A DNA stretch of 64,000 bases, taken from assembly GCF_014203325.1 (NCBI RefSeq), contig NZ_JACHIV010000001.1:5023501-5087500 (forward strand). The letters run 5' to 3'. The notes beneath the pieces are model-generated. The model ran no database searches, was not told the DNA's origin, and worked only from the letters and a program-made list of their open reading frames with translations. Positions 5,069-59,377 of this stretch are shown piece after piece (positions within the stretch are counted from its first letter, which is position 1; the number at the start of each line of letters is the position of its first letter). The DNA is from Saccharopolyspora gloriosae. GTDB taxonomy: Bacteria > Actinomycetota > Actinomycetes > Mycobacteriales > Pseudonocardiaceae. A program made the position numbers and the translations under genes.

Positions 5069-5236
5069 GCGGAGAGTGGTCGACGGCGACGAGTGGAGGA
5101 AGCCGGTGCGAGTCCGGCGCGGTCCCGCCACTGTCACCGGGGAGCGGACTCCGCACAACGAAGGTCACTGCCCGCGCACGTGCGCGGACGGGAAGGCCGG
5201 AGCGAGCGCCGATCCGGGAGCCAGGACACTCCGCGC
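5069..5236 (+). promoter_or_regulatory. Cobalamin riboswitch upstream of cobN
   Basis: The conserved core is clear: AAGCCGGTGCGAGTCCGGC followed by the B12 box GCCACTGT at 5127-5134, and the closing segment AGCCAGGACACTC at 5219-5231. A P1 helix can be drawn between GCGGAG...GTG at 5069-5078 and CACTCCGC at 5227-5234. Riboswitches of this class bind adenosylcobalamin and lower expression of the downstream gene. Here the downstream genes are a 17-codon ORF and cobN. The helix borders are approximate. Confidence 0.92.
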
Positions 5237-8967: not shown

Positions 8968-8977
8968 GCAGTTTTCG

Positions 8978-9026
8978 AGTGAACGGACCGTTCGTCCAAT
9001 CCCATGAGACGAACGGTCCGTTCACT
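8978..9026. terminator. Perfect 19-bp hairpin of the AACGGACCGTTCG family, after cobN
   Basis: Arms 8978-8996 and 9008-9026 are exact complements (AGTGAACGGACCGTTCGTC and its reverse complement) around an 11-base loop. It begins 10 bases after the cobN stop. There is no T-run. Related hairpins stand at 10365, 57491, 57555, 59166 and 59316, always at gene 3' ends, so a transcription-ending or 3'-end-protecting role is inferred. Confidence 0.75.
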
Positions 9027-9101
9027 TCGGGTTCGCAGGAATCAACGCCGGCGGCCGATCGAGAACGCTCTCCCGTGACGGCATCGCGGCGATCTGTTCG
9101 G

Positions 9102-10303: not shown

Positions 10304-10364
10304 CCGCGCCCCCGGTCCCGTCGCCGTCCAGGCCGATCATGCAGGCGAGCACCGACACAAAGTG

Positions 10365-10413
10365 AGTGAACGGACCGTTCGTCCAATCCCGTTGGACGAA
10401 CGGTCCGTTCACT
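10365..10413. terminator. Perfect 22-bp hairpin of the AACGGACCGTTCG family, 3' of helR
   Basis: Arms 10365-10386 and 10392-10413 are exact complements with a 5-base loop (TCCCG). The hairpin lies 16 bases after the helR stop (minus strand) and about 60 bases upstream of the deaminase start, so it probably separates the helR transcript from the toxin operon. It is the most perfect copy of the family in the window. Confidence 0.75.
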
Positions 10414-10428
10414 CCCAGTGTCCCGGCC

Positions 10429-33045: not shown

Positions 33046-33210
33046 GCCAAGGCGAGGCAGTGTCCTGACTCCCGGATCAACGCGGGACCCCGGCCTTCCC
33101 AGGCAGCAGCGTTCGCCGACGCGCCCGGTGGCTCGCGAGGGAGGCCCGCTCCCCGGTCACAGTGGCGCCGACCGTGCCGGACTCGCACCGGCTTCCTGAC
33201 CTGCCTTGGC
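33046..33210 (-). promoter_or_regulatory. Cobalamin riboswitch upstream of the ChlI-ChlD gene
   Basis: On the minus strand the core reads GAAGCCGGTGCGAGTCCGGC, then the B12 box GCCACTGT at 33166-33159, then GGGAGTCAGGACACTGCC ending near 33055. A P1 helix pairs GCCAAGGCAG (33210-33201) with CTGCC...TTGGC (33060-33046). The switch ends about 45 bases before the gene start. It shares its core with the cobN riboswitch, so both chelatase subunits should fall together when adenosylcobalamin is plentiful. Confidence 0.93.
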
Positions 33211-33959: not shown

Positions 33960-34748
33960 TCAGAGCCGGGCCGCGACGTCCGAGGAGACCGCCGCGATCC
34001 GGGTGTACACGCCGGGCGTGCCGGGCCGCCCGCATCCGGTGCCGTAGGACACGACGCCGATCAGCCTGCCGTCGGTGACGAGCGGCCCGCCGGAGTCCCC
34101 GGCGCACGCGTCCCGGCCGCCTTCCGGCGCTCCCGCGCACACCCGCGTTCCCGGTTCGTAGTCGGAGTACGCGGCCCGGCAGTCCGCGTCGGAGCTGATC
34201 GGCACCTCGGCGGAGCGCAGCACCTCCGAGGACGAGCCGGTCTCGGCGGTGCGCCCCCAGCCGTAGACCCGGGCCTGCTTGCCCGGCCGGTACGGCTCGG
34301 CGTCCCCGGGTTCGGCCATCGGCAGCGGCTGCTGCGCGGCGGGAGCGGTCAAGGTCAGCACCGCCACGTCGTATCCCTCGGTGACGTCCCGGAATTCCGG
34401 GTGCACCCACACGCCCCCGACCGCGCCGTCGGTTCCCCCGGTGTCGCGCAGGTCCGCCCGGCCGGTGATCGCGCGCAGCGCCGCGGGGTCGCGGCCGTCG
34501 ACGCAGTGCGCGGCGGTGACGACCTTGATCGGCGTGACGAGGGTGCCGCCGCAGAACTGGTGCCCCGCGTCGTCGGTCAGCGCCACCGCCCACGGCGCCG
34601 CGCCCTCTTCAGCGCCGCCGAGGACCCGCTCCTGAGCGGGGTCGGCCCCGGCCGGAGCGCCCAGCGCGGTCAGCGCCGCGGCCAACGCGGAGGCGCCGGC
34701 GGCGAAGCGGGCCGGCGAACGCCGCGGCGGGCGGGAGTGGTCGGACAC
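33960..34748 (-). CDS. Secreted trypsin-like serine protease
   Basis: A 262-residue S1 protease. It has a Sec/Tat-like N-terminus (basic SRPPRRSPARFAAGAS, a hydrophobic run and an AGA cleavage region), then the zymogen-style junction RVLGGAEE. The catalytic triad is His in TAAHC, Asp in YDVAVLTL and Ser in GDSGGP. Disulfide cysteines fit bacterial trypsins. GTG at 34748 follows GGAGG 6 bases upstream; a longer in-frame start exists but would bury the signal peptide. A paralogue lies at 36217-37041 on the other side of a LysE gene. It acts outside the cell; the substrate is unknown. Confidence 0.9.
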   Translation of the reverse strand: MSDHSRPPRRSPARFAAGASALAAALTALGAPAGADPAQERVLGGAEEGAAPWAVALTDDAGHQFCGGTLVTPIKVVTAAHCVDGRDPAALRAITGRADLRDTGGTDGAVGGVWVHPEFRDVTEGYDVAVLTLTAPAAQQPLPMAEPGDAEPYRPGKQARVYGWGRTAETGSSSEVLRSAEVPISSDADCRAAYSDYEPGTRVCAGAPEGGRDACAGDSGGPLVTDGRLIGVVSYGTGCGRPGTPGVYTRIAAVSSDVAARL

Positions 34749-35087
34749 GACGGCCTCCAAGACTCGCACCGCTGATCGGAGGTGATCAACGCGTTCGGCG
34801 GCACACGGTAGCGGCCCGGTCACCGAGAGATCAGGAGGGCGAGCTCACATGGGCTCGCAAGAATTTTTCGTTAATATAGTTGTTGACGGGAAAAACTACG
34901 GAGCACTTGCGCGGCCGATCGCCGTTCGTCCCGTAGCCCCGTCCACGATCCTCGGGAGTCCGCGACGACGCGGACCCGAGATCACCCCCGATCCGGTGAA
35001 ACCTTCGACCGGTGGGCCCATCCGCCCACCGGCCACCTTCGTGCGCGCACGACCTGCGCGACGACTCGATCAAGGAGCGAACACGTC
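34749..35087. other. Intergenic region with an AT-rich patch
   Basis: About 340 bases between the divergent protease and LysE genes. Bases about 34858-34905 are strikingly AT-rich for this genome (AATTTTTCGTTAATATAG, then TTGTTGACGG), which is where promoters for both directions are likely. A short open frame through it on the plus strand has no family match and is not called as a gene. Confidence 0.5.
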
Positions 35088-35714: not shown

Positions 35715-35871
35715 CGCCCTCGGTAGCCGCGTGGTCTCGCTCGGCTCCACCCCCAACGACCGTGCTTTGCGGCGAAGCCGTGCAGTGGACGAGCGAAGCG
35801 AAGTCTGCCTCGCGGCCGAAGGCCGTGCCTGTATTCGCGCAGCGAATAGCCCACGTCACAAAGCCGACCAC

Positions 35872-35978
35872 CGGCGGGTTCTCAGTCGGTCTCTCGCGAG
35901 GACAGCTTTTTCCCTCGTGGCGGAGCCACTCGGGAAAAAGATCCCGCAGCGAGAGACCGACTGAGGTTCCGCTACCCG
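35872..35978. repeat. Structured covarying repeat, copy 1
   Basis: Outer stem arms 35881-35897 (CTCAGTCGGTCTCTCGC) and 35949-35965 are perfect 17-bp complements. Flanking GCGG/CCGC adds 4 pairs across a symmetric GTT/GTT loop. Inside are 51 bases with CTTTTTCCC pairing GGGAAAAAG and an innermost GTGGC-GGA-GCCAC hairpin. The inner part is identical, bar one base, to copies at 39.5 and 45.3 kb, while the outer stem differs and still pairs. Several small GAA-loop hairpins precede it (35768-35860). It lies between lysE and a convergent protease gene. Confidence 0.85.
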
Positions 35979-36216
35979 GACACCCCAGCAACACCAGCCG
36001 TGGAAGCAATCCTGAAACCCGACCTTCCACACACCACCGCAACCACACGCCCAAACCCGGGAAGGCTCTAAAACCCGACCCCACACGCCAAGCCGCGCGA
36101 GACTCCACAACCCGCCCCCGCACCAAGCAGAGCACTGCTTTCCTGGTGCTGCAGACGCAGCAAGGCCGGGGCACCCGGCGTGCGCCCCGGCCTTGCCTCC
36201 CCGACTACCCGTGTGA

Positions 36217-37041
36217 TCAGCCCAGCTGGGCCTGCACCTCTTGTTGATAGGTGCTCACGCGGGTGTACACGCCCGGAGTCCCCGGCCGGGCGCAGCCGTT
36301 GCCCCACGAGACGATGCCGATGAGGCGCCCGTCGGCGACGAGCGGTCCGCCGGAGTCGCCTTGGCAGCTGTCCTCGCCGCCTTCGGGCAGACCCGCGCAC
36401 ACCATCGCGTCGGGGTTGTACTGCCCGCCGTAGGCCCGCGAGCAGTCCTGATCGCTGGTGATGGGCGGGTGCGCTTGGAGGAGGGTGCGGGACGGTCCGC
36501 CGCCTTCTTCGGTGGTCCCCCAGCCGAGCACGGTGGTCGCCGCTCCCGGCGCGTAGAGCGCGTTGTCCTGCTGGGTGGCCAGGGGCAGTGGTGTCTGCGG
36601 CAGCTCCCGGTCGACGGTGAGCACCGCGATGTCGGAACCGGTGCTGGCGCTCTGGTATTCCGGGTGCACCCAGACGGTGCGGACTTCGGCTTCGACGCCC
36701 TCGTCGGTCGTCTTGTCGTCGCGCCCGGCGACGACGGTGATCTGCCGTGGTGCTCCGCCGGTGACGCAGTGCGCCGCGGTGACGACCTTGTTCTTGGCGG
36801 CGATGGTGCCGCCGCAGAACTGGTTGCCGCCGGAGTCGGTGAGGTAGACGACCCACGGGTATTCGGTGGTGCTCGCGGGCTCCCCGCCGACGATCTTGGT
36901 GGTGGGGGCACCGGACGTCGGCTCGGACGCCGTGGTGTCCGCCCCGGCCGGGGCGGTGATCGCGACCGAGGCCAGCGCCGCCGCGGTGAGCGCTCCCGAC
37001 ACCGACCACCACCGGGTTCGCCTGCGCAGAGTGTGTGTCAT
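36217..37041 (-). CDS. Secreted trypsin-like serine protease (paralogue)
   Basis: A 274-residue S1 protease with a clear signal peptide (MTHTLRRRTRWWSVSGALTA, then an Ala-rich run to APAGA), the junction KIVGGEPAS near residue 50, and the triad in TAAHC, SDIAVLTV and GDSGGP. Six or more cysteines fit the trypsin disulfides. ATG at 37041 has GGAG 7 bases upstream; a second in-frame ATG at 37053 is less well placed. It closely resembles the protease at 33960-34748, so the two arose by duplication. It acts outside the cell; the target is unknown. Confidence 0.92.
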   Translation of the reverse strand: MTHTLRRRTRWWSVSGALTAAALASVAITAPAGADTTASEPTSGAPTTKIVGGEPASTTEYPWVVYLTDSGGNQFCGGTIAAKNKVVTAAHCVTGGAPRQITVVAGRDDKTTDEGVEAEVRTVWVHPEYQSASTGSDIAVLTVDRELPQTPLPLATQQDNALYAPGAATTVLGWGTTEEGGGPSRTLLQAHPPITSDQDCSRAYGGQYNPDAMVCAGLPEGGEDSCQGDSGGPLVADGRLIGIVSWGNGCARPGTPGVYTRVSTYQQEVQAQLG

Positions 37042-37467
37042 CCCGCTCTCCATCCCCCGGAGCCCCTGCGGCGCGGTCGGGGCGACCGGCCCGCCTCCGG
37101 CTCGTGACAGTGTCGCGGAGAGAGCCGATCACGGCGCGGTGATCGTCCACAACGGCCGATCGTTGTTACCTGATCAGGTGATATATCGGGAGAAAACCCC
37201 TCACCCAGACCAGCACATTCAGTCCACTTCGGACAGTTCGGGCGCGGTCGCCGGAGCTCGCCCCACGCCTGAGAGCGACGGTCTCGAGCAGCCGCTCGGG
37301 CCACCGACCTGACCCCGGCCGCGCGATCGACCCGCCGCTGCGACCGACCGGAGATCACCCGCACGGCGCAGCGGATCACCGGGACGCAGTAGCCGACCGG
37401 ACTCCGGGCGATCGGCACCGGATGATCTCGACGGGCGTCGCGGGAACCGCCGCGCACCAGAGCGGCG
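37042..37467. other. Upstream region of the second protease gene, with a palindrome
   Basis: About 425 bases without a supported gene. The perfect 12-bp palindrome ACCTGATCAGGT at 37168-37179, next to an AT-rich GATATAT, lies about 130 bases upstream of the protease start and could be an operator. Its core recurs upstream of the XRE gene at 57149-57158. A GTCCACTTCGGAC motif is at 37222-37234. Confidence 0.5.
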
Positions 37468-38313
37468 TCAGTAGTCCTTGAGGACTTCGCGGATGAGGTC
37501 GGCGGCGGCGTCGGGGGCGAGGGCCGCGTGCACGATGTCGCGCAGCACGCCCCGATAGGAACTCACCGTTCGCTCGGAATCCAGGAAGGCGGAGGCGTGG
37601 TGGTTCTCCACGTAGACGATGTCCGGCTCGCCGTCATATTCCAAAAGCAGAAATGCACCCTGCAATCCGGGATAGGCGCCGACCGAACGCGGCACGATCC
37701 GCAGGCACACGTGATCCGATTCCATCATCACCAGCAGATGCAGCAGCTGCCGCTTCATCACTCCCGGACCGCCGATCGGGCGGCGCAACGCCGATTCCTC
37801 CAGCACCGAGTGGAACAGCGGAGCGCGCGATCGGCTCAGAATGATCTGCCGCGCCATCCGGGTCGCGATCAAGTCGTCCAGTTCGTCTTCGGACCGCCCC
37901 GGTTCCATACCGGAGATGACGGCGCGCGCGTATTCGGCGGTCTGCAGCAGGCCGGGGATCAGCATCGGTTCGAAACTGTGCATCCGGACCGCTTTGCCCT
38001 CGTAGTCCAGGAAGTCCCGCCAGCGCGCCGGAGCCGCGGCGGGGCGCTGCCACCAGGCGGAGCGGCCCGCGTTGCGCGCCAGCTCTGCGAGGGCGGCGCG
38101 TTCCCGTTCGCCCACCTCGTAGAGCCGCAGCAACGCGGTGACGTCGTCGAGCTGCACGCCGCTGGCCCCGGTCTCGATCCGACTGATCTTGCTGCCCGAC
38201 ACGCCGAGCCGGGCGCCCGCAGCGGTGCAGCTGAGCCCGGCGCGTTCCCGATGACGGCGGAGCTCGGCGGCCACCTGGCGCGAACGGACCGACGTGTGAC
38301 GATTTCCCGGCAT
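37468..38313 (-). CDS. XRE-family regulator with DUF5753
   Basis: A 281-residue protein. The helix-turn-helix is near residues 12-70 (AELRRHRERAGLSCTAAGAR, then VSGSKISRIETG). DUF5753 follows with FEPMLIPGLLQTAEYARAVI near residue 115, ATRMARQIILSR, and IVPRSVGAYPGLQGAFLLLE near 220. ATG at 38313 is chosen because homology starts just after it; other in-frame ATGs at 38340 and beyond have weaker support. Unlike the other two XRE-DUF5753 genes in the window it has no DUF397 partner next to it. Confidence 0.88.
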   Translation of the reverse strand: MPGNRHTSVRSRQVAAELRRHRERAGLSCTAAGARLGVSGSKISRIETGASGVQLDDVTALLRLYEVGERERAALAELARNAGRSAWWQRPAAAPARWRDFLDYEGKAVRMHSFEPMLIPGLLQTAEYARAVISGMEPGRSEDELDDLIATRMARQIILSRSRAPLFHSVLEESALRRPIGGPGVMKRQLLHLLVMMESDHVCLRIVPRSVGAYPGLQGAFLLLEYDGEPDIVYVENHHASAFLDSERTVSSYRGVLRDIVHAALAPDAAADLIREVLKDY

Positions 38314-38786
38314 GACTGCGCTATCCCCCAGCATCGACATCCCCCGAACCGGCATCGGCGAAATCCGGGCTTCGCCGGTACCGATGTCGGCAGAACATTG
38401 GGCACGTGCACCACCGGTTCGACGGGCCGCTTTCCGGCCGCCGACGAATCCGGCGGACCGATTCTCGCATTCGCGGATCCGAGACGTTTTTGCGGTACCG
38501 CCCGCAGAACGGTCGATCCTCGCATTGGTCGGCCCGTGCGGAAATTGTCCCGACCCGTCCGGGCCGTGGTCGCCTACACCGAGATCGGTGTGCACGATGA
38601 CCATGATCCCGAGCCGGACCGGCACCGACAATAACTCGATCAAGTGAATACTTGCACGGGTTGCATCAGCGGTGTCACCGCCCGTCGCGGGCGGCGCCGC
38701 GCGGGCCCGCGCACGGCCCCCACTAGGCTGCGGCCGGGCGGTGCTGATGATCGTCCAGCACCCCGCGCCGTCGAGGAGGAGACCGA
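38314..38786. other. Divergent intergenic region before the PEBP gene
   Basis: About 470 bases. Part of it is open in frame with the XRE gene but is not convincing as coding. An AT-richer patch at 38630-38660 includes CAAGTGAATACTTG (a 5-bp inverted repeat) and may hold promoters for the PEBP gene. Nothing else is evident. Confidence 0.45.
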
Positions 38787-39332
38787 ATGAGCCTGCAACG
38801 CCCGATCGACCCGGACCCGTACTCGCTGCTGCCCGAGGTCCCTTCGTTCACCCTCACCTCGAAGGACGCGCCCACCGACGAGCAGCTCGCGCTCGACCAC
38901 GTCTACAGCGGCATGGGCGCCGGTGGCCGCAACCGCTCCCCGCAGCTGAGCTGGGAGGGCTTCCCCGCCGAGACGCGGAGCTTCGTGGTCACCTGCTTCG
39001 ACCCGGACGCCCCGATCCCCGGCGGTTTCTGGCACTGGACGCTGGTGGACGTGCCCGCCGACGTCACCGAACTGCCCACCGGCGCCGGCTCCGCGACCGG
39101 CTCGGGCGTGCCCGCGGGCGCGTTCCAGGTGCCCAACGACCTCGGCGAGCGCGCCTACGCGGGCGCTGCGCCGCCGCCCGGCGACCGGCCGCACCGCTAC
39201 CTGTTCGCCGTGCTCGCGCTGGATGTTCCGCAGCTCGGGGTGAACGACCAGGTCACGCCCGCCGTCGTCAACTTCACCGCGCTCAACCACACGCTGGCCC
39301 GCGCAGTGCTGTCCACCACGTACGCGCACTGA
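38787..39332 (+). CDS. PEBP family protein (YbhB/YbcL, Raf-kinase-inhibitor-like)
   Basis: A 181-residue protein with the bacterial PEBP signatures: NRSPQLSWEGFPAETRSF near residue 49, DPDAPIPGGFWHWTLVDVP near 72, and GDRPHRYLFAVLALDV near 132. Family members bind phospholipid or small anionic ligands; the role in bacteria is not established. ATG at 38787 has GAGGAG upstream. It ends about 85 bases before the second copy of the structured repeat. Confidence 0.92.
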   Translation: MSLQRPIDPDPYSLLPEVPSFTLTSKDAPTDEQLALDHVYSGMGAGGRNRSPQLSWEGFPAETRSFVVTCFDPDAPIPGGFWHWTLVDVPADVTELPTGAGSATGSGVPAGAFQVPNDLGERAYAGAAPPPGDRPHRYLFAVLALDVPQLGVNDQVTPAVVNFTALNHTLARAVLSTTYAH

Positions 39333-39417
39333 CCCGAAGCGGCCAGAACTCCTCAGCAACGATCTCGCGCCACTCAAGGCGAGCAGCGTTCTCCACCCAG
39401 CGGAGATCAGTGTCATG

Positions 39418-39570
39418 TCAGCGGCGAAGCCGCTGAGCAGCGACCACCCTGCCCACCGGCACCGCCGCGGGTTCTCAGTCGTCTTCTCGCGAGGACAGCT
39501 TTTTCCCTCGTGGCGGAGCCACTAGGGAAAAAGATCCCGCAGCGAGAAGACGACTGAGGTTCCGCCACCC
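39418..39570. repeat. Structured covarying repeat, copy 2
   Basis: A first hairpin, TCAGCGGC-GAA-GCCGCTGA at 39418-39436, is followed by the core. The outer stem is CTCAGTCGTCTTCTCGC at 39474-39490 with its exact complement at 39542-39558, around a 51-base inner part equal to copies 1 and 3 except one base (A for C before GGGAAAAAG). It lies between the PEBP and VanZ genes, both on the plus strand. Confidence 0.85.
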
Positions 39571-39615
39571 GACCCCCAAGCAAGAAGCCCCAAGAAACAT
39601 TCCCCACGGGAGGGT

Positions 39616-40743
39616 GTGGTGCACGTTCGGGTGCTGCCCGCGGTGGCCGCCGTCGTGGTGGCGGTGGCCTTGGTGGTGCTGCTGTTCGTGCCCTACGTCG
39701 CGCGGGAGCACCGCAGGCGCGGTGAACTGCGGCCCGGCACGTTGCTGCTGTTCCTGGCAGCGGTGCTCTACGCGCTCGGCCTGGTCGCCTACGTGCTGGT
39801 GCCGCTGCCGCCGGTGGGGCCGGGCTTCTGCGACGTCTTCGGGGAGCTGCGCCCGCAGTGGCGCCCGTTCGCCGGGTTCGACGGGCTCCGGCGGCCGGGC
39901 GACTGGGCGGAGCTGACCGGGTTGCTCGCCGATCCCGCGGTGCAGCAGTTCGGGTTCAACATCGTGCTGTTCGTGCCGCTGGGCATGTTCGTGCGGCACC
40001 TGCTGCGCGAGGGGTTCGGCGGGACCGTGCTCGCCGGGTTCATGGTGTCGCTGGGGGTGGAGCTCACCCAGATCACCGGGATCTGGTTCCTGTACCCGTG
40101 CCCGTACCGGCTGTTCGACGTCGACGACCTGATGGCGAACACCTTCGGCGCGCTGGTGGGCGCGCTGCTGGCCCGGGTCCTGCGGCTGGTGCCGGGCCAG
40201 CACAGCGGCACCGAGCCGGGTTCGCCGCGCCCGGTCGGGACCTACCGCAGGCTGCTCGGGATGGGCTGCGACGTGCTGCTGCTGTGGTGGCTCGGCGTGG
40301 CGCTGGCGCGCGGCGCGGATCTGCTGCTGCGGCTCGGCGGTGTGCGTCTCGATCCGGCGGCGCAGGTCTGGGTGGAATCCGCCGCGCTGTGGTTCGTCCC
40401 CGCCGTGCTGCTGCTGATCGCCACCGCCGCGGGCCGCGGCAGCACGCTCGGCCAGCACGCCGTGCTGCTGCGCTGCGTCGAGGACGGGAGCGGGGTCGAG
40501 GACGGGCGCGGGCCCGCCGTGCGCCGCGTGCTGCTGCGCTGGCTGGCGGGCCTGGGCGGGTTCGCGCTGGTGGAAGGCCTGATCAACGTGGTGTGGCCGG
40601 TGGCGGGCACCGCGTTCGCGGTGGCCTGGTTCGCGGTGCACGCGCTGTCGGTGCCGCGCAGCCACCACCACCGGGGGCTCACCGGTTCGTTGACGGGCAC
40701 CGACGTCGTGGACTCCCGAGCGCTCAACGCGCCGGCGGAGTGA
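39616..40743 (+). CDS. VanZ-like membrane protein with RDD domain
   Basis: A 375-residue membrane protein. The N-terminal half has VanZ-like features: several helices, FGFNIVLFVPLGMFVRHLLR near residue 112, LGVELTQ near 145, and RLFDVDDLMANTFGALVG near 165. The C-terminal half matches an RDD-type four-helix region (RLLGMGCDVLLLWWLGVALA near 205 and STLGQHAVLLRCVE near 275). VanZ proteins are linked to glycopeptide tolerance in some bacteria, but most homologues have no known role. GTG at 39616 or 39619, close behind GGGAGG, starts it. Confidence 0.82.
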   Translation: MVHVRVLPAVAAVVVAVALVVLLFVPYVAREHRRRGELRPGTLLLFLAAVLYALGLVAYVLVPLPPVGPGFCDVFGELRPQWRPFAGFDGLRRPGDWAELTGLLADPAVQQFGFNIVLFVPLGMFVRHLLREGFGGTVLAGFMVSLGVELTQITGIWFLYPCPYRLFDVDDLMANTFGALVGALLARVLRLVPGQHSGTEPGSPRPVGTYRRLLGMGCDVLLLWWLGVALARGADLLLRLGGVRLDPAAQVWVESAALWFVPAVLLLIATAAGRGSTLGQHAVLLRCVEDGSGVEDGRGPAVRRVLLRWLAGLGGFALVEGLINVVWPVAGTAFAVAWFAVHALSVPRSHHHRGLTGSLTGTDVVDSRALNAPAE

Positions 40744-40774
40744 CCACAGGCGCGTTGACCGCTGTTCCGCCCGA

Positions 40775-41086
40775 TCACGCGGCGGCGGGGTCCTGCTCGA
40801 CCGGCTGCTGCTGAGCGGGCCCGTTGCCGGGGCCGCGTGCGCTGGAGCGGCCGAACACGAACCACAGCACGCAGCCGAGCACCGGCGCCATCACCACGAT
40901 CAGCGCCCACACGGCCTTCGTGGCGCTGTCGGTCTCGGACCGGAAGATGCTCACGAGCGCGCCGATGAACAGCGCGAGGAAGCCGAGCGCGACGAGTCCG
41001 AGCCCGATGAGGAACAGGATGCTCCAGATCGTCTCGGGCGGGTTGTCGGCGGCGGTCTGGGCGAGGGCGAGCTGGGCGTTCAACAT
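40775..41086 (-). CDS. PLDc_N-type small membrane protein
   Basis: A 103-residue protein with two hydrophobic helices and the PLDc_N (cardiolipin synthase N-terminal-like) pattern: SIFRSETDSATKAVWALIVV near residue 48, PVLGCVLWFVFGRSSARG near 70. Proteins with this domain alone occur widely in actinobacteria; the role is unknown. ATG at 41086. A shorter paralogue lies 65 bases upstream on the same strand. Confidence 0.8.
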   Translation of the reverse strand: MLNAQLALAQTAADNPPETIWSILFLIGLGLVALGFLALFIGALVSIFRSETDSATKAVWALIVVMAPVLGCVLWFVFGRSSARGPGNGPAQQQPVEQDPAAA

Positions 41087-41150
41087 GGTTTCTTCCTCTC
41101 GATCGGGGTGGCGGCGCGGACGCCGCCGGAAGTCGCGGAGCGGTCGGGGG

Positions 41151-41417
41151 TCAGTGAGCGAAGCGTTTGCGGGCGTCGGAGCGGCCGACCACGAACCAGA
41201 GCAGGCTGCCGAGGAACGGCGCCAGGAACGCGAGCACGATCCACACGAGCTTCATCCCGCCGGACAAGCCGGAACCGAGGATGCTGATCAGCGCCGCGAT
41301 GAACAGGACCGCGAACGCGGCGACCACCGCGAGCACGCCGCCGGTGAGCACCCACGCGCCGACCTGTTCCCCGGTGCTCGCGGCGAGCGCCGAGTGCTGC
41401 GCGATCAAGGACTTCAT
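41151..41417 (-). CDS. PLDc_N-type small membrane protein (paralogue)
   Basis: An 88-residue protein with two hydrophobic helices and the same PLDc_N pattern as its neighbour (SGGMKLVWIVLAFLAPFLGS, then LLWFVVGRSDARKRF). ATG at 41417 follows GGAGC. The pair at 40775 and 41151 is a tandem duplication. Function is unknown. Confidence 0.8.
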   Translation of the reverse strand: MKSLIAQHSALAASTGEQVGAWVLTGGVLAVVAAFAVLFIAALISILGSGLSGGMKLVWIVLAFLAPFLGSLLWFVVGRSDARKRFAH

Positions 41418-41615
41418 GGGGAGAGCTCCGTTCCTCGTTGGTCAGCGGGTTCCGTGCCGCCGATGAGATCCATGTTGTCCCGCGACGGGGTCCCCGCACG
41501 TCAGCACTTCGGGCCGAGCCGACTTGGCGGAAAGTCGTACGACACCGTGCCCTGAAGCGGGACGTCCCGCATGCCCGCTGCGGAGAACTCTGGTGGCCGG
41601 GAAAGGAGCCACACC

Positions 41616-42353
41616 ATGATCACTGCGCAAGGGCTGACCAAGCGGCACGGGAGCACGACGGTCGTCGACGACCTCTCGTTCACCGTGCGGCCGGGCGTCG
41701 TCACCGGATTCCTCGGGCCCAACGGGGCCGGGAAGTCCACCACCATGCGGCTGATGCTGGGCCTCGACCACGGTCGCGGGCGCACCACGTTCGGCGGGCG
41801 GACCTACGGGGAGCTGGCGGATCCGCTGCGCACCGTCGGGACGCTGCTCGACGCGGGTGCCGCGCATCCGGCTCGGACCGCGCGCGACCACCTGCGGATG
41901 GTCGCCGCGAGCACCGGTATCCCGGACTCGGAGGTCGATCGGGCGCTCGCGGCGGTGGGGCTGGAGTCGGCGCGGTCGCGGCGCGCGGGGAAGTTCAGCC
42001 TCGGCATGCGCCAGCGGCTCGGGCTCGCCACCGCGCTGCTCGGCGACCCGGAATATCTGATCTTGGACGAGCCGGCGAACGGCCTCGATCCGGAGGGGGT
42101 GCACTGGATGCGGCGGTTCCTGCGCGGCCTGGCCGCCGAGGGGCGCACCGTGTTCGCGTCCTCGCACCTGCTCTCGGAGATGTCGCAGCTCGCCGACGAC
42201 CTGGTCGTGATCGGCGGCGGCAGGTTGATCGCCGCGGCGTCGGTGCCTGACTTCATCGCGCGGCACGCGCCGAGGGGCACGTTGGAGGACGCGTACCTGG
42301 CCGCGACGTCGGCGACCGTCCAGTACCGGGGATACGAGAGGAACGCGGCATGA
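41616..42353 (+). CDS. ABC transporter ATP-binding protein
   Basis: A 245-residue ATPase with Walker A GPNGAGKST near residue 38, a Q-loop equivalent in TLLDAGAAHPARTARD, the signature FSLGMRQRLGL near 128, Walker B YLILDEPANGLDPEG near 148, and a switch histidine in FASSHLL. It powers the membrane protein encoded immediately downstream (ATGA overlap). ATG at 41616 follows AAAGGAG. Such pairs, with an adjacent two-component system, often act in peptide or drug export; the substrate is unknown. Confidence 0.93.
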   Translation: MITAQGLTKRHGSTTVVDDLSFTVRPGVVTGFLGPNGAGKSTTMRLMLGLDHGRGRTTFGGRTYGELADPLRTVGTLLDAGAAHPARTARDHLRMVAASTGIPDSEVDRALAAVGLESARSRRAGKFSLGMRQRLGLATALLGDPEYLILDEPANGLDPEGVHWMRRFLRGLAAEGRTVFASSHLLSEMSQLADDLVVIGGGRLIAAASVPDFIARHAPRGTLEDAYLAATSATVQYRGYERNAA

Positions 42354-43159
42354 ACCTGCGCTACGACACCCACCACGACCCGCGCGGCGTGGACGGCCCG
42401 ACCGTGCGGCACGAACCGGTGCGCCCGGCGCCACCACGTCCCGGATCGCGCGATTCCTCCGGAGCACGACCGGGTTTCGGCGCTGCGCTGCGCTACGAGT
42501 GGACCGGTCTGCGGACGTTGCGCGCCCCGTGGCTGCTGGCCGGGGCGGCGCTGCTGCTGCAAGTGCTCGTAGCCGTCTACACCATGACCAAGGACCTCAG
42601 CGCGGCCGAGGCGTTCGACCAGTCCTTCGCGCTGACGCCGAAGCTGGCGGCGCTGCTGGTCGCGGCGATCGGCGTGAACGTGTTCGCCACCGACTACCGG
42701 AACAAGACGATCACCACCACGCTGCTGGCGGTGCGCTCGCGCACCCACGTGGTGCTGGCGAAGACCGCCCTCACCGCGGCGGTGGGCGCGGTGGTCTCGC
42801 TCGCCGCGGTGGCGATCACCTACGTGCTGCTGCGGCCCGGTGATCTCGCGATGGTCTCGACCGTCGGCGCCGGATTGCTGCTCTACGTGGTGCTCTCGGC
42901 GCTGTTCGGGCTCGCGCTGGCCGGGTTGACCAGGAGCTCCGCCGTCGCGCTCAGCGCGGTGCTGCTCGTGCCGCTGCTGCTGGAGCCCATGCTGGTGCTG
43001 GCCTCGCGCCTCGAACTCGCGGCGCTGCCCTTCGCCGCCACCGCGCAGCTGTTCCAGAACCCGGACGCGGCGAGCTGGTGGATGCCGCTGCCGCTGCTGG
43101 GGATCACGGCCGCGTTGTCGGTGGCCACGACGGTGCTGCTGTCCCGGCGGGATGCGTGA
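42350..43159 (+). CDS. ABC transporter permease
   Basis: A 269-residue membrane protein with an N-terminal polar stretch and about six hydrophobic segments starting near residue 58 (WLLAGAALLLQVLVAVYTM). The soluble loop TDYRNKTITTTLLAVRSRTH is typical of ABC-2-type permeases. The ATG overlaps the ATPase stop (ATGA), and its own stop overlaps the next gene's ATG by one base, so the ATPase, permease and kinase genes are one operon. Confidence 0.88.
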   Translation: MNLRYDTHHDPRGVDGPTVRHEPVRPAPPRPGSRDSSGARPGFGAALRYEWTGLRTLRAPWLLAGAALLLQVLVAVYTMTKDLSAAEAFDQSFALTPKLAALLVAAIGVNVFATDYRNKTITTTLLAVRSRTHVVLAKTALTAAVGAVVSLAAVAITYVLLRPGDLAMVSTVGAGLLLYVVLSALFGLALAGLTRSSAVALSAVLLVPLLLEPMLVLASRLELAALPFAATAQLFQNPDAASWWMPLPLLGITAALSVATTVLLSRRDA

Positions 43160-44376
43160 TGTCGCTCGCCGAGACCGACCCCTACCTTGGTCGGGTGCGT
43201 GAAAACGGGAAGTGGGCCGCTCGGCTGGCCTTGTGGGACGGCAAGTTCCGATCGCTGCTGCTGGATCTGCTGATCGCGTTCCTCGCGGTGGCCACGCCGG
43301 ACGATCCGGCGGTCTGGCAGCAGTGGGTGCTGATCCCCGGCAACGCGGCGCTGTTCGGCGCGATGCTGCTGCGCAGGCGGTTCCCGCTGGTCGCGGTCGC
43401 GGCCGCCTCGGCCCACTCGCTGCTGGTGGGTACCGACGGCGGGGCCACGGGCATGGTGGTCGCGATGTACACGCTGGCCAGTCGCCGCGGGCCGACTTCG
43501 GTCACGTGGATCGGCGCCGGGATCGTCGCCGCTTCGCACGTGGTGCGGGTGCTGCTGCCGGGCAACGGGGCGCTGTGGTCCGACGGCCCGTTCACGGTGG
43601 CGCTGGGCGTGCTCGCCGGGTTCGCGATGATCGCGGCGCTGCCGCTGCTGCTCGGGTTGTGGCTCTACTCGCGCAGGGACCTGCTGACGAGCCTGCGGGA
43701 ACGCGCGGTGCAGGCCGAGCGGGAGCGGGATCTGCTGGCGGAGCGCGCGGTCACCGCCGAGCGGCGGCGCATCGCCCGCGAGATGCACGACGTGGTGGCC
43801 CACCGGGTCAGCGTCATCTCGTTGCAGGCGGGGGCGTTGACGATGACGGCCACCGACCAGCGCACCGAGGAGGTCGCCGAGGTGATCCGGGTGTCCAGCT
43901 CGGCCGCGCTCAGCGAGCTGCGGGAGATGCTGCGGGCGCTGCGCGACGATGCCGAGAACCCCGGTGGCGACCACGCGGCACCGTCCTTGGACGGGTTGCG
44001 GGACCTGGTCGAGGATTCGGTCGCGGCGGGCGCGGACATCGCGCTGGACATGCCGCAGGAGTTGCCGGAGACCTCCGCGGTGGTCGGTCGCGCCGCGTAC
44101 CGCGTGCTGCAGGAGGCGTTGACGAACGCGGGCAAGCACGCCCCCGGTTCGCCGGTGCGCGCCGAGATCCTCGCCGCCGCCGACGGCCTGGTGGTGGAGG
44201 TGACCAACCAGCGCGGCGCGGGCACGACGGTGGTGGAGGGCTCCGGCTACGGCCTGATCGGCATGCGGGAGCGGGTCACCCTCGCGGGCGGCACCTTGCA
44301 GGTCGGCCGCACCGACGACGACGGCTACCGGGTGCGGGCCGCGTTCCCGGTGCTGGAGGGCGCGAACGCATCCTGA
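43159..44376 (+). CDS. Sensor histidine kinase linked to the ABC transporter
   Basis: A 405-residue kinase with about five N-terminal hydrophobic segments, a coiled coil (RAVQAERERDLLAERAVTA), the phospho-acceptor helix REMHDVVAHRVSVISLQAGA near residue 210, and an ATPase domain with LQEALTNAGKHAPG and GYGLIGMRERV. It belongs to the HisKA_3 group that works with LuxR-type regulators; such a regulator follows 110 bases downstream. The start overlaps the permease stop (TGATG). Together they probably sense a stress and control the transporter. Confidence 0.92.
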   Translation: MSLAETDPYLGRVRENGKWAARLALWDGKFRSLLLDLLIAFLAVATPDDPAVWQQWVLIPGNAALFGAMLLRRRFPLVAVAAASAHSLLVGTDGGATGMVVAMYTLASRRGPTSVTWIGAGIVAASHVVRVLLPGNGALWSDGPFTVALGVLAGFAMIAALPLLLGLWLYSRRDLLTSLRERAVQAERERDLLAERAVTAERRRIAREMHDVVAHRVSVISLQAGALTMTATDQRTEEVAEVIRVSSSAALSELREMLRALRDDAENPGGDHAAPSLDGLRDLVEDSVAAGADIALDMPQELPETSAVVGRAAYRVLQEALTNAGKHAPGSPVRAEILAAADGLVVEVTNQRGAGTTVVEGSGYGLIGMRERVTLAGGTLQVGRTDDDGYRVRAAFPVLEGANAS

Positions 44377-44485
44377 CCGTCCACAGAGGAACGTGACCGC
44401 GCTGTCCGGTTCCGGGACACCTTGAGGAGACCGGGACCGGGCTGGATACCGTGGGACGGCAACGTCGTCGGGCGCGGGGAGTCAC

Positions 44486-45130
44486 GTGGGCATCAGGGTG
44501 GTCCTGCTGGAGGACGAGGAACTGGTGCGCGGTGGCATCCGCCTCATCCTCGAATCGGATCCGGGCATCGAGGTGGCGGCGGAAGCCCCGGACGGCTCGG
44601 GTGTGGTCGAACTGGTCGCCAAGCACCGGCCGGACGTGGTGCTCACCGACATCCAGATGCCCCGCGTCGACGGCCTGGAGGTGACCAAGCGGGTCACCGC
44701 GCTGCCCGAGGCGCCCGCCGTGCTGGTGCTGACCACGTTCGACGTCGACGAGTACGTGCACGCCGCCCTGCAGGCCGGGGCTTCCGGGTTCCTGCTCAAG
44801 GACACGCCGCCGCGCGAGCTCGCCGCCGCCGTGCACACCGTGGCCTCCGGCGAGGCGATGCTCTCGCCGCGGATCACCAAGCGGCTGCTGGGCACGTTCG
44901 CCGCGGGCAAGGGAAGCTCCGACGCCCGCGGCAAGATGGACCAGCTCACCCCGCGCGAGCGGGAGGTGGCGATCGCCGTGGCGCAGGGCCTGAGCAACGC
45001 GGAGATCGCCGCGCACCTCTACATGAGCGCCTCCACCGTGAAAGTCCACATCGGACGGATCATGGGCAAGCTCGGCGCCTCGAACCGCACCCAGGTAGCC
45101 ATCGTCACCCACGACGCAGGTCTAGCCTGA
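44486..45130 (+). CDS. LuxR/NarL-family response regulator (ABC operon)
   Basis: A 214-residue response regulator with the acidic pair LLEDEE at the start, phospho-acceptor aspartate in VVLTDIQMPRVDG near residue 53, FLLKDTPPRE near 103, and a LuxR helix-turn-helix (LTPREREVAIAVAQGLSNAE, ASTVKVHIGRIMGKLG). GTG at 44486 is behind GGGGAG. It pairs with the kinase upstream. The third copy of the structured repeat begins about 90 bases after its stop. Confidence 0.93.
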   Translation: MGIRVVLLEDEELVRGGIRLILESDPGIEVAAEAPDGSGVVELVAKHRPDVVLTDIQMPRVDGLEVTKRVTALPEAPAVLVLTTFDVDEYVHAALQAGASGFLLKDTPPRELAAAVHTVASGEAMLSPRITKRLLGTFAAGKGSSDARGKMDQLTPREREVAIAVAQGLSNAEIAAHLYMSASTVKVHIGRIMGKLGASNRTQVAIVTHDAGLA

Positions 45131-45221
45131 CCCGCCGCCGGAACGGCCCGCGCGGCGGGCCTCATCACCTTTTCCTTGATCCTGTCCTTCCAGGTGAGCG
45201 GCGTTGTGGGTCTTTGTCCTG

Positions 45222-45374
45222 TCAGCGGCGAAGCCGCTGAGCAGCGACCACCAAAGCAAAAAGACCACCCGCGGGTTCTCAGTGGCTTCCTCGCGAGGAC
45301 AGCTTTTTCCCTCGTGGCGGAGCCACTCGGGAAAAAGATCCCGCAGCGAGGAAGCCACTGAGGTTCCGCCACCT
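45222..45374. repeat. Structured covarying repeat, copy 3
   Basis: A first hairpin, TCAGCGGC-GAA-GCCGCTGA at 45222-45240 (identical to copy 2), is followed by the core. The outer stem is CTCAGTGGCTTCCTCGC at 45278-45294 with exact complement 45346-45362, around a 51-base inner part identical to copy 1. It lies between two convergent response regulator genes. Confidence 0.87.
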
Positions 45375-53130: not shown

Positions 53131-53370
53131 CGGTGCCTCCCCGTGATCGCCGCGCGGCCGCACCCGTTCCGGCATTAGCGCACAGCGATGCGAGGACCAA
53201 GTTAGTGATCTTGGTCGAGAACGGTCGACATCCCTGAGGAGTAGATCCGGGGTAAACCTACGTAGTAGTAGGTAAGCGGGACTCGCCCGTTCCGGATCCT
53301 AGCGGCGCAGCGCCTCCCTCGGTGCCCACCCGGCCACGACCACCGGTCGGGTGATCAGCGACGCTCTCCG

Positions 53371-53396
53371 GGAATCAGCGGGCCGCCCGCGCGGTT
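53371..53396 (+). promoter_or_regulatory. SigR/SigH-type promoter of mycothione reductase
   Basis: GGAAT at 53371-53375 (GGGAAT from 53370), 18 bases, then GTT at 53394-53396. This exactly matches the GGAAT-N18-GTT consensus of the thiol-oxidative-stress sigma factors SigR (Streptomyces) and SigH (mycobacteria). The start codon lies about 58 bases downstream. Mycothione reductase is a known member of such regulons, so control by disulfide stress is likely. Confidence 0.75.
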
Positions 53397-57273: not shown

Positions 57274-57492
57274 ATGCGCGAGCAGCGAGCAGTCGAGAAC
57301 GACACCTACGTGTGCCTGTCCGAGCAGGTCAGGGTCACCTTCGAGACCGAACCGGACCGCTCCGTCCAGCTCGACTTCCGAGGCAGCGGCGACGGCCTCA
57401 CCCTGAACTTCACCGAAAAGGCTTTCGCCGAACTCACCAGCGCAGTAGGCCGAGCCAACACCGAACTCCTCGGCATCCCCACCCCGAACTGA
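57274..57492 (+). CDS. Small conserved-looking protein of unknown function
   Basis: A 72-residue acidic protein (MREQRAVENDTYVCLSEQVR, then VTFETEPDRSVQLDFRGSGD, ending in a helix) with no family I recognise. It has a very good ribosome binding site (AGGAGG, 7 bases before the ATG) and is divergent from the XRE-DUF5753 gene, so it could be one of that regulator's targets. It ends inside the first of a run of hairpin repeats. Confidence 0.6.
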   Translation: MREQRAVENDTYVCLSEQVRVTFETEPDRSVQLDFRGSGDGLTLNFTEKAFAELTSAVGRANTELLGIPTPN

Positions 57493-57640
57493 GCGAACGG
57501 ACCGTTCGTCCAAACCCCTTGGACAAACGGTCCGCTCACCCACAACCCGAACCGAGTCAACGGACCGTTCGCCCAAACCCGTTGGACAAACGGTCCGCTC
57601 ACTCGATCCGCAGCTGAGTCAACGGACCGTTCGCCCAACG
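57491..57640. repeat. Cluster of AACGGACCGTTCG hairpins, three copies
   Basis: Copies lie at 57491-57537, 57555-57603 and a half copy from 57617. Arms are imperfect (GACAAACGGTCCGCTCAC on the right side), unlike the perfect copies at 8978 and 10365. They lie between the convergent small gene and the MBL hydrolase gene. They probably act as transcription barriers for both. Confidence 0.7.
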
Positions 57641-57647
57641 CGGACGC

Positions 57648-58528: not shown

Positions 58529-59170
58529 ATGTCACCTCGACGCTCCGCCGCCGAAGCGCGCGCCACGCGAGCGCGGATCATCCACCGCGCCACCGAGATC
58601 GCCTCCGAGGAAGGACTCGAAGGCGTCACCATCGGCCGCCTGGCGGGCGAGCTGGAGATGAGCAAGTCCGGCGTGCTCGGGCACTTCGGAACCAAGGAAG
58701 CGCTCCAGGCCTCGACCCTGGACGACGCCTTCGCGAACTTCTGGCGCCGCGTCGTGGAAGCCGCCGAACAGCACCGGCCGGGCATGCCGCGGCTGCACGC
58801 GCTCTGCGAGAACTCGGTGACCTTCCTGGCCACCTTGGAACTGCCCGGCGGATGCCTGCTCACGGCGGCGTCGAGCGAATTCGACGGCCGCCCCGGCCTG
58901 GTGCGCGACGCCGTCGCCCAACGGTGGTCGTGGTGGCGCGGCCGGCTGCGCGACGAGCTCGCCGCGGCGGCGGACCACGGCGAACTGCCCGCGCACGTCG
59001 ACGTCGACCAGGCCGTCTTCGAGATCATCGCGGTCGGCCTGGCCCTGAACCAAGCCCTGCAGCTCGACCACGACCCCCGGGCCGTCGACCGCGCGCACCG
59101 CGCCATCCACCGCATCCTCGAAGCAGCACCTGAGCAGGCACGCGCACCCCAGACCGCCCGAGATGAGTGA
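58529..59170 (+). CDS. TetR-family regulator
   Basis: A 213-residue TetR protein. The helix-turn-helix lies near residues 12-60 (TRARIIHRATEIASEEGLEG, then LAGELEMSKSGVLGHFGTKE). The C-terminal ligand-binding region resembles the TetR_C_11-like group, with PGGCLLTAASSEFDGRPG near 110. ATG at 58529 has little leader. It is divergent from the MBL hydrolase gene and probably represses both itself and that gene through the inverted repeat between them. Confidence 0.92.
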   Translation: MSPRRSAAEARATRARIIHRATEIASEEGLEGVTIGRLAGELEMSKSGVLGHFGTKEALQASTLDDAFANFWRRVVEAAEQHRPGMPRLHALCENSVTFLATLELPGGCLLTAASSEFDGRPGLVRDAVAQRWSWWRGRLRDELAAAADHGELPAHVDVDQAVFEIIAVGLALNQALQLDHDPRAVDRAHRAIHRILEAAPEQARAPQTARDE

Positions 59171-59364
59171 ACGGACCCTTCGCCCAACAGGATGGGCGAA
59201 CGGTCCGTTCACTCCACCCGCATCGCGCCGCTGCTGCGGTGAACGGCCCGTTCGCCCAACGAGACCGGGAGAACGGTTCCACTCACTCCGGCTGCGGCGG
59301 GCACTTCCCGATCAAAGTGAACGGACCGTTCGCCCAACAGGATGGGACGAACGGTCCGTTCACT
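59166..59364. repeat. Cluster of AACGGACCGTTCG hairpins, three copies
   Basis: Copies at 59166-59213, 59239-59286 (degenerate) and 59316-59364. In the first, TTCGCCC pairs with GGGCGAA, a paired change from the TTCGTCC/GGACGAA form of other copies, which points to selection for the stem. The cluster fills the gap between the convergent tetR and MFS genes. Confidence 0.75.
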
Positions 59365-59377
59365 CGGTGAGCTCCGC

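Follow-up and report, generated by a model that had tools for sequence, protein, structure and literature searches.

A dispersed palindromic repeat family of Saccharopolyspora gloriosae with a covarying stem that is replaced at orthologous loci

The BOX elements of Streptococcus pneumoniae are small, non-coding and interspersed; they are built of modules, the middle ones varying in number, and form a stem-loop if transcribed, and the passages of PMC3049150 that describe them name no mobiliser. REP sequences (repetitive extragenic palindromes), with their REPIN and BIME forms and the Y1 transposase RAYT, are palindromic, extragenic and high in copy number (PMC2817692, PMC3116915, PMC8266576), and a length of 20-40 bp is given for REPs in PMC3733652. 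Bacterial miniature inverted-repeat transposable elements (MITEs) are non-coding, highly base-paired and dispersed (PMC10969869; definition in PMC3049150). Leaving aside the REP length and the RAYT transposase, these traits appear to be shared by a repeat of Saccharopolyspora gloriosae, three copies of which lie in a stretch of 64,000 nucleotides (nt) of its chromosome (contig NZ_JACHIV010000001.1, positions 5,023,501 to 5,087,500; hereafter the window). The three copies have cores of 99 nt each, at positions 35874-35972, 39467-39565 and 45271-45369 of the window, all on the plus strand. They belong to a large family in which the covariation of the stem is real, and at orthologous loci this stem is replaced.

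In the own genome (G000) the window is part of a single contig of 6,825,909 bp; among the relatives, G001 denotes Saccharopolyspora sp. NFXS83 and G004 denotes sp. HNM0986. With up to three mismatches, the 24-base head matched 286 times in the own genome (130 on the plus and 156 on the minus strand; reversed control 0), a count that may include single copies read on both strands, as was observed in G003. An exact frame, CTCGCGAGGACAGC and GATCCCGCAGCGAG separated by 18 to 48 bases, gave 202 copies and none in the control, so the repeat is not limited to the three copies first noticed. The head pattern matched four of 100 genomes, namely the own genome and three others of the genus, and a covariance model based on 34 copies of the own genome matched all six genus genomes searched. 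A shorter frame pattern matched 28 of 200 genomes and 9 of 46 genera of the host family, at 1 to 212 matches per genome, some of the single matches (as in G028) perhaps being due to chance. The exact frame, applied to a sample of the whole order, matched 11 of 397 genomes, every one of them in the host family. A scan reporting named genomes (the named scan) returned 84 stretches, 80 of them listed, in Saccharopolyspora, Actinopolyspora and Halopolyspora. The listed Saccharopolyspora include sp. NFXS83, sp. HNM0986, hirsuta, oryzae, elongata and shandongensis, next to Actinopolyspora righensis, alba, biskrensis and mzabensis and Halopolyspora algeriensis.

Rfam holds no matching family: a search of the window returned two cobalamin riboswitches and nothing corresponding to the repeat, and in a permissive search with copy 3 the core scored 20.3 bits at best, where the gathering score is 100. 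Phage and plasmid collections, searched in distant mode with copy 3 and its flanks, gave no match. Searches of the open-licence PubMed Central (PMC) literature turned up no description of the repeat family, nor of a family-wide frame whose self-complementary stem is replaced locus by locus, publication elsewhere being possible, and Saccharopolyspora goes unmentioned in the main text of PMC12306157 and of PMC3733652. The distribution along the own chromosome is uneven, with two exact heads in the approximately 0.9 Mb between 2.3 and 3.2 Mb as against 44 between 1.3 and 2.3 Mb. Contigs C14, C19, C20, C21 and C27 of the G001 draft terminate in or beside an element, so that the repeats seem to break assemblies.

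Each core is built, from the outside inward, of GCGG paired with CCGC, a GTT/GTT internal loop, a 17-bp stem, a second internal loop (GAGGACAG/ATCCCGCA) and a head. An earlier note on this DNA, made from the window's letters alone, had described three structured copies with an almost invariant inner part and a compensated stem, and this description holds. The inner 51 bases (core columns 25-75) differ at a single column, 58, which reads C/A/C, and both the GTT/GTT loop and GCGG/CCGC are identical in all three. The 17-bp stem varies at columns 14, 16, 17, 18 and 19, every change being compensated on the opposite arm, and the variable stems of copies 1, 2 and 3 are TCGGTCTC, TCGTCTTC and TGGCTTCC. 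Copy 1 folds at -71.6 kcal/mol, compared with -39.05 +/- 3.82 in 200 shuffles (z -8.5). Applied to the window with an E value limit of 10, the covariance model returned the three copies alone, each with a second, weaker match on the opposite strand.

The same pattern is found in the own genome at large and across genera, confirming a structured family. The 34 own copies comprise 30 distinct sequences; in them both sides were changed at 10 of 35 pairs, eight successive stem pairs among them, and 99.5% of the cells were paired; slid-partner controls gave 43-53% paired, and shuffles as well as slid partners fell far below the observed values for paired cells and double changes. For 24 sequences (23 distinct) from several genera, 15 of 28 pairs were double-changed, including nine stem pairs and six of the seven head-helix pairs, and 98.0% were paired; because some of these rows were fetched by the exact frame, the frame is invariant there by selection. 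Fifty-seven own elements were also collected in 924 kb with a loose pattern. The 47 of them that are full length carry 20 different 8-nt stems, exactly complementary in 42, and another sample of 84 own copies (63 distinct cores), enriched for stem TCGGTCTC, contains 27 left stems; 72 of the 84 copies have exactly complementary arms, and 76 when G.T pairs are allowed.

The frame is kept across species as GCGGGTTCTCA, CTCGCGAGGACAG, ATCCCGCAGCGAG and TGAGGTTCCGC. In 43 own copies the mean column identity is 0.98 outside the stem versus 0.64 within it, and outside the stem columns 31 and 58 alone have a majority below 0.9. The invariance of the frame in the named-scan and frame-pattern loci is partly a matter of selection, as these were fetched with the exact frame; the own blocks were collected with the loose pattern, and the G004 and G005 loci among L072-L097 with the covariance model. 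The head was called fixed in the earlier note and proved to vary by species and subfamily, while both internal loops and the ends of the stem stay constant. The own head is CTTTTTCCC..GGGAAAAAG, that of G004 and G005 is CGATTTC..GAAATCG, that of S. hirsuta CCCGTTT..AAACGGG and that of Actinopolyspora CCTCGACG..CGATGTCGAGG, all of them competent for pairing.

Replacement of the stem was observed by comparison with G001, which is 92-96% identical to the window region over long stretches. Twenty-two own elements were anchored in G001 by their flanks, at an anchor identity of 87-99%, and 14 of these loci carry an element there, 12 in the same orientation. None of the 12 repeats the own stem in both arms; at own 1.56 Mb one arm of a G001 hybrid does so. 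In the six intact pairs, with both copies 99 nt long, 38 of 96 stem sites differ, all of them on both arms, as against 11 of 324 other paired sites and 8 of 174 unpaired sites, which is a divergence of 40% in the stem versus 3-5% elsewhere in the core. Own 1.795 Mb and its ortholog at 122.9 kb of G001 contig C9 agree almost completely in leader and right flank, but three stem pairs and two head pairs are double-changed between them. The window copies were compared likewise. The site of copy 2 is occupied with other stems in G001 and G002, and the ortholog of copy 3 in G001 carries CGGTTTCC in both arms, together with one-sided head changes; no core was found at the copy 3 site in G002. For copy 1 the orthologous site is empty in G002, and a G001 contig ends there. 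In G003 the orthologous sites are without all three copies. Since the stem is replaced at orthologous loci, it gives no locus identity, contrary to one of the two readings offered by the earlier note. Separately, the G001 orthologs of own 1.7098 Mb and 1.7613 Mb are deletion remnants, one a headless arm-to-arm palindrome and the other a leader hairpin joined to a right arm.

Exchange between copies is indicated by several signs. Four-gamete combinations were found in 49 of 72 stem-pair/site tests, which recurrent mutation could also give; hybrid arms occur in one own copy and several G001 copies; and in one own copy (approximately 53280-53380 of G000:C1; L033, L100) the head is inverted relative to the flanks, which looks like an inversion of the segment enclosed by the arms. 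The four-gamete combinations and hybrids are also consistent with ordinary concerted evolution, in which whole cores would be overwritten by gene conversion and the stem diversity would be old standing variation where pairing alone matters. Two further observations agree with this explanation: the mean stem distance of orthologs, 3.17 of 8 (n=6), does not fall clearly under the 3.78 of permuted pairs (P 0.16), and the leader type is constant at a locus while the core changes, in nine occupied pairs among those listed. Pasting of whole cores alone, however, requires donors. The rare stems GTGGCCTC and TGGATTTC each occur once, in the own genome, and TGGTCCTC occurs once, in G001, at the locus orthologous to own 1.795 Mb, when four genomes were searched with a 15-base pattern, the G001 draft being 97% complete. 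None of these three, the rare stems tested, thus has a second copy as donor, although the donor may have been lost or may carry a changed frame; no living donor accounts for them, yet both arms carry the new stem. Among them are the own 1.795 Mb stem and its G001 counterpart, both unique despite the near-identical leader and right flank. Ordinary concerted evolution as the explanation is considered unlikely.

Stem divergence per site is about eight times that of the flanking DNA (40% versus roughly 5%), and relaxed constraint alone is insufficient because the stem sites differ more than the flanks. It may be imagined that the stem undergoes active rewriting, in which a process of the cell, or one linked to the element, renews the 8 bp of both arms simultaneously at a given locus, with the rest of the core fixed. 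If true, this would mean a hypervariable self-complementary tract maintained by a dedicated hairpin-templated mechanism; it appears doubtful, and quite unlikely.

The position of the copies relative to genes was analysed for the 57 own elements, with genes called by a custom codon scorer. Thirty lie in tandem gaps, 26 in convergent gaps, one in a divergent gap and none inside a gene; 56 are downstream of at least one gene, a REP-like placement as anticipated earlier, and the tandem ones are divided between the gene strand (14) and the opposite strand (16). From gap lengths, which include the elements themselves, 62% tandem, 13% convergent and 24% divergent are expected, or about 14 divergent elements versus the one observed. 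In G002, 18 of 19 elements were classed, as nine tandem, eight convergent and one divergent, and G003, with three elements, is similar. The window copies, all said by the earlier note to follow gene ends, indeed do so: copy 1 lies between convergent LysE-type and trypsin-type genes, copy 2 between tandem PEBP-type and VanZ-type genes, and copy 3 between two convergent LuxR-type response regulator genes.

This placement would suit a host-useful gene-end element, either a bidirectional terminator or a stabiliser of mRNA 3' ends, spread and kept by selection, for which the enrichment in convergent gaps, the avoidance of divergent ones and the irrelevance of the strand in the own genome all speak. 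Promoter avoidance, however, is equally expected of harmless insertion. On neither strand is the hairpin followed by a T run, and the copy number by pattern ranges from 0 to more than 200 within one family. Moreover, orthologous genes manage without the element, as at copy 1 in G002 and G003, copy 2 in G003 and copy 3 in G002 and G003. Such a function is regarded as possible but not likely. No consistent rule of replication-strand bias was found for the exact-head copies of the own genome by position bin: 14 plus and 30 minus copies lie at 1.3-2.3 Mb, nine plus and one minus at 2.3-3.6 Mb, and the other bins are about even except for 10 plus and four minus at 6.1-6.8 Mb, positions beyond 4.26 Mb being those among the matches listed.

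The conserved internal loops and covarying helices resemble a structured RNA, and a weak excess of G.U over A.C would also fit a family of non-coding RNAs, one made from each copy, with the stem as copy identity, as the earlier note had it. Against this, the stem is not retained at orthologous loci, and one and the same stem recurs, at as many as 19 of 84 places in the sample enriched for it and as many as 5 of the 47 full-length block copies. In the own genome the copies are oriented at random to the genes, and there is no Rfam relative. This explanation is judged distinctly improbable.

A Y1-type transposase had been suggested as mobiliser by the earlier note. The own genome contains no match to Y1_Tnp (PF01797) at E 0.001, compared with matches in five of 14 control genomes, and a very divergent RAYT could escape this search. 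A retro-element was also tried and rejected, the own genome having no match to reverse transcriptase (PF00078), for which three of the 14 control genomes match.

A model is preferred, with about an even chance of being right, in which the repeat is a non-autonomous, modular interspersed element, a mosaic of BOX or REP kind, acting as a folded single strand whose arms correct each other; a mobiliser would act on it, and the strand could be DNA or RNA. A protein would read the frame, made up of GTT/GTT, GAGGACAG/ATCCCGCA and the stem ends adjoining these two internal loops; for the head and the central stem positions, pairing would be enough. Copies would insert into 3' intergenic gaps in either orientation, and resident copies would swap sequence with other copies. 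The arms would then be re-matched, most simply by one arm templating the other in a hairpin or cruciform, and recombination between copies together with small mutations would generate new, fully complementary stems. Imperfect palindromes are known to undergo such correction from studies of mutagenesis in bacteria. An alternative to arm-to-arm copying is strong selection for pairing.

Several points weigh against this model. Templating of one arm by the other is read from the pattern of matched changes, the donor search covered rare stems, and the orthologous stem comparison consists of six intact pairs. Uncompensated stem changes, which the earlier note would have counted against a structured repeat, are found in part: in the own genome the arms are mostly matched, with five of the 47 full-length block copies not exactly matching, and in the named scan 36 of 65 frames, mostly from G001 and other relatives, have exactly complementary 8-nt arms and 29 do not, G.T pairs and hybrids being included in the 29. 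Eight of the 22 anchored loci are without a finder match in G001, but of seven that were inspected at least three contain remnants. With G001 copies at 14 of the 22 loci and these remnants, many insertions appear to be old, and movement itself was not seen. Clean target duplication was not seen at nine sites (seven own/G001 cases, at least three of them remnants, and two reverse cases), where the flanks are partly replaced, and the Y1 and reverse transcriptase searches of the own genome yielded no mobiliser. Folding of the plus strand predicts that G.U is better tolerated than A.C. Distinct site/type events of G.T versus A.C numbered 47 versus 27 in all taxa and 14 versus 5 in the own genome, which weakly supports the plus strand as the folding one, and 13 versus 11 in G001 and 4 versus 5 in G002; in this count the head columns of other subfamilies were compared at own-copy positions, inflating the "other" mismatches. 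Finally, seven of the nine tandem elements of G002 are on the gene strand, unlike in the own genome.

The family amounts to more than 200 parallel natural experiments in one genome, which has close relatives, on how long palindromes keep their arms matched. It bears on how palindromic repeats spread without a Y1 transposase, and on how often covariation in bacterial repeats comes from selection for the fold and how often from hairpin-templated repair. Because strong covariation here accompanies turnover of the stem, covariation alone is no proof of a functional RNA.

A complete element is composed of a leader of one of two types, the 99-nt core and a short right flank. Thirty of the 57 own elements have type A, 25 type B and two neither. 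The type-A leader is a run of mini-hairpins with GAA-like loops, variable in number, and its terminal hairpin (for instance ATGTGC-GAA-GCACAT) is complementary in 30 of 30 parsed own copies, with four stem sequences; the type-B leader hairpin is complementary in 22 of 22, with one compensated variant. The length of type-A arrays, for example B0 26393 (G000:C1, approximately 1.5764 Mb), differs at orthologous loci. In the window, copy 1 has a type-A leader at 35770..35847 on the plus strand, with the mini-hairpins CGGC-GAA-GCCG (35770-35780), CGGCC-GAA-GGCCG (35813-35825) and ATTCGC-GCA-GCGAAT (35833-35847). Its variable stem part pairs 35886-35893 with 35953-35960, and a right flank of the ACCCGGACACC..AGCAACAC type, common to other copies, extends over 35973..36005, its outer limit being approximate. 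Copies 2 and 3 have type-B leader hairpins, TCAGCGGC-GAA-GCCGCTGA in copy 2, on the plus strand at 39418..39436 and 45222..45240; these share TCAGCGGCGAAGCCGCTGA, as the earlier note had seen, and the hairpins upstream of copy 1 are different. The variable stem pairs 39479-39486 with 39546-39553 in copy 2 and 45283-45290 with 45350-45357 in copy 3.

Other features were recorded in the window. The two cobalamin riboswitches of the Rfam search are at 5097-5230 and 33058-33198. The LysE-type gene and copy 1 lie between a trypsin-type protease gene (36217-37053; Pfam) and an open reading frame at 33960-34823, the two having DNA stretches 75-77% alike. Several copies of another palindromic repeat family, GTGAACGGACCGTTCG(T/C)CCAA..TTGG(A)CGAACGGTCCGTTCAC, some closely spaced, are at 8969-9028, 10356-10415, 57483-57647 and 59157-59366.

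Integron attC sites would resemble the repeat in being folded single strands that combine conserved boxes and unpaired bases with variable helices; they are characterised by inverted GTT/AAC boxes and an integrase. The repeat, in contrast, is dispersed chromosome-wide in both orientations after genes, and its GTT motifs are in direct register rather than inverted. It departs from BOX elements (PMC3049150) in its 99-nt core, whose frame hardly varies and whose stem stays complementary while being replaced at orthologous loci; its modules of variable number come before the core, whereas in BOX elements, of the build A-(B)n-C, they lie within. REPs, as palindromes of 20-40 bp with a tetranucleotide tag, differ from the 99-nt core with its two internal loops and added leader, and no Y1_Tnp match accompanies the repeat in its own genome. 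From MITEs it is distinguished by its high GC content and by arms that covary across genera; no target duplication was seen at the nine sites compared, and no parent insertion sequence is known, none having been searched for. The core is an imperfect palindrome, and some type-B copies have inverted flank motifs by eye. Alike in placement, number and palindromic build, BOX, REP and MITE elements are the nearest known kinds.

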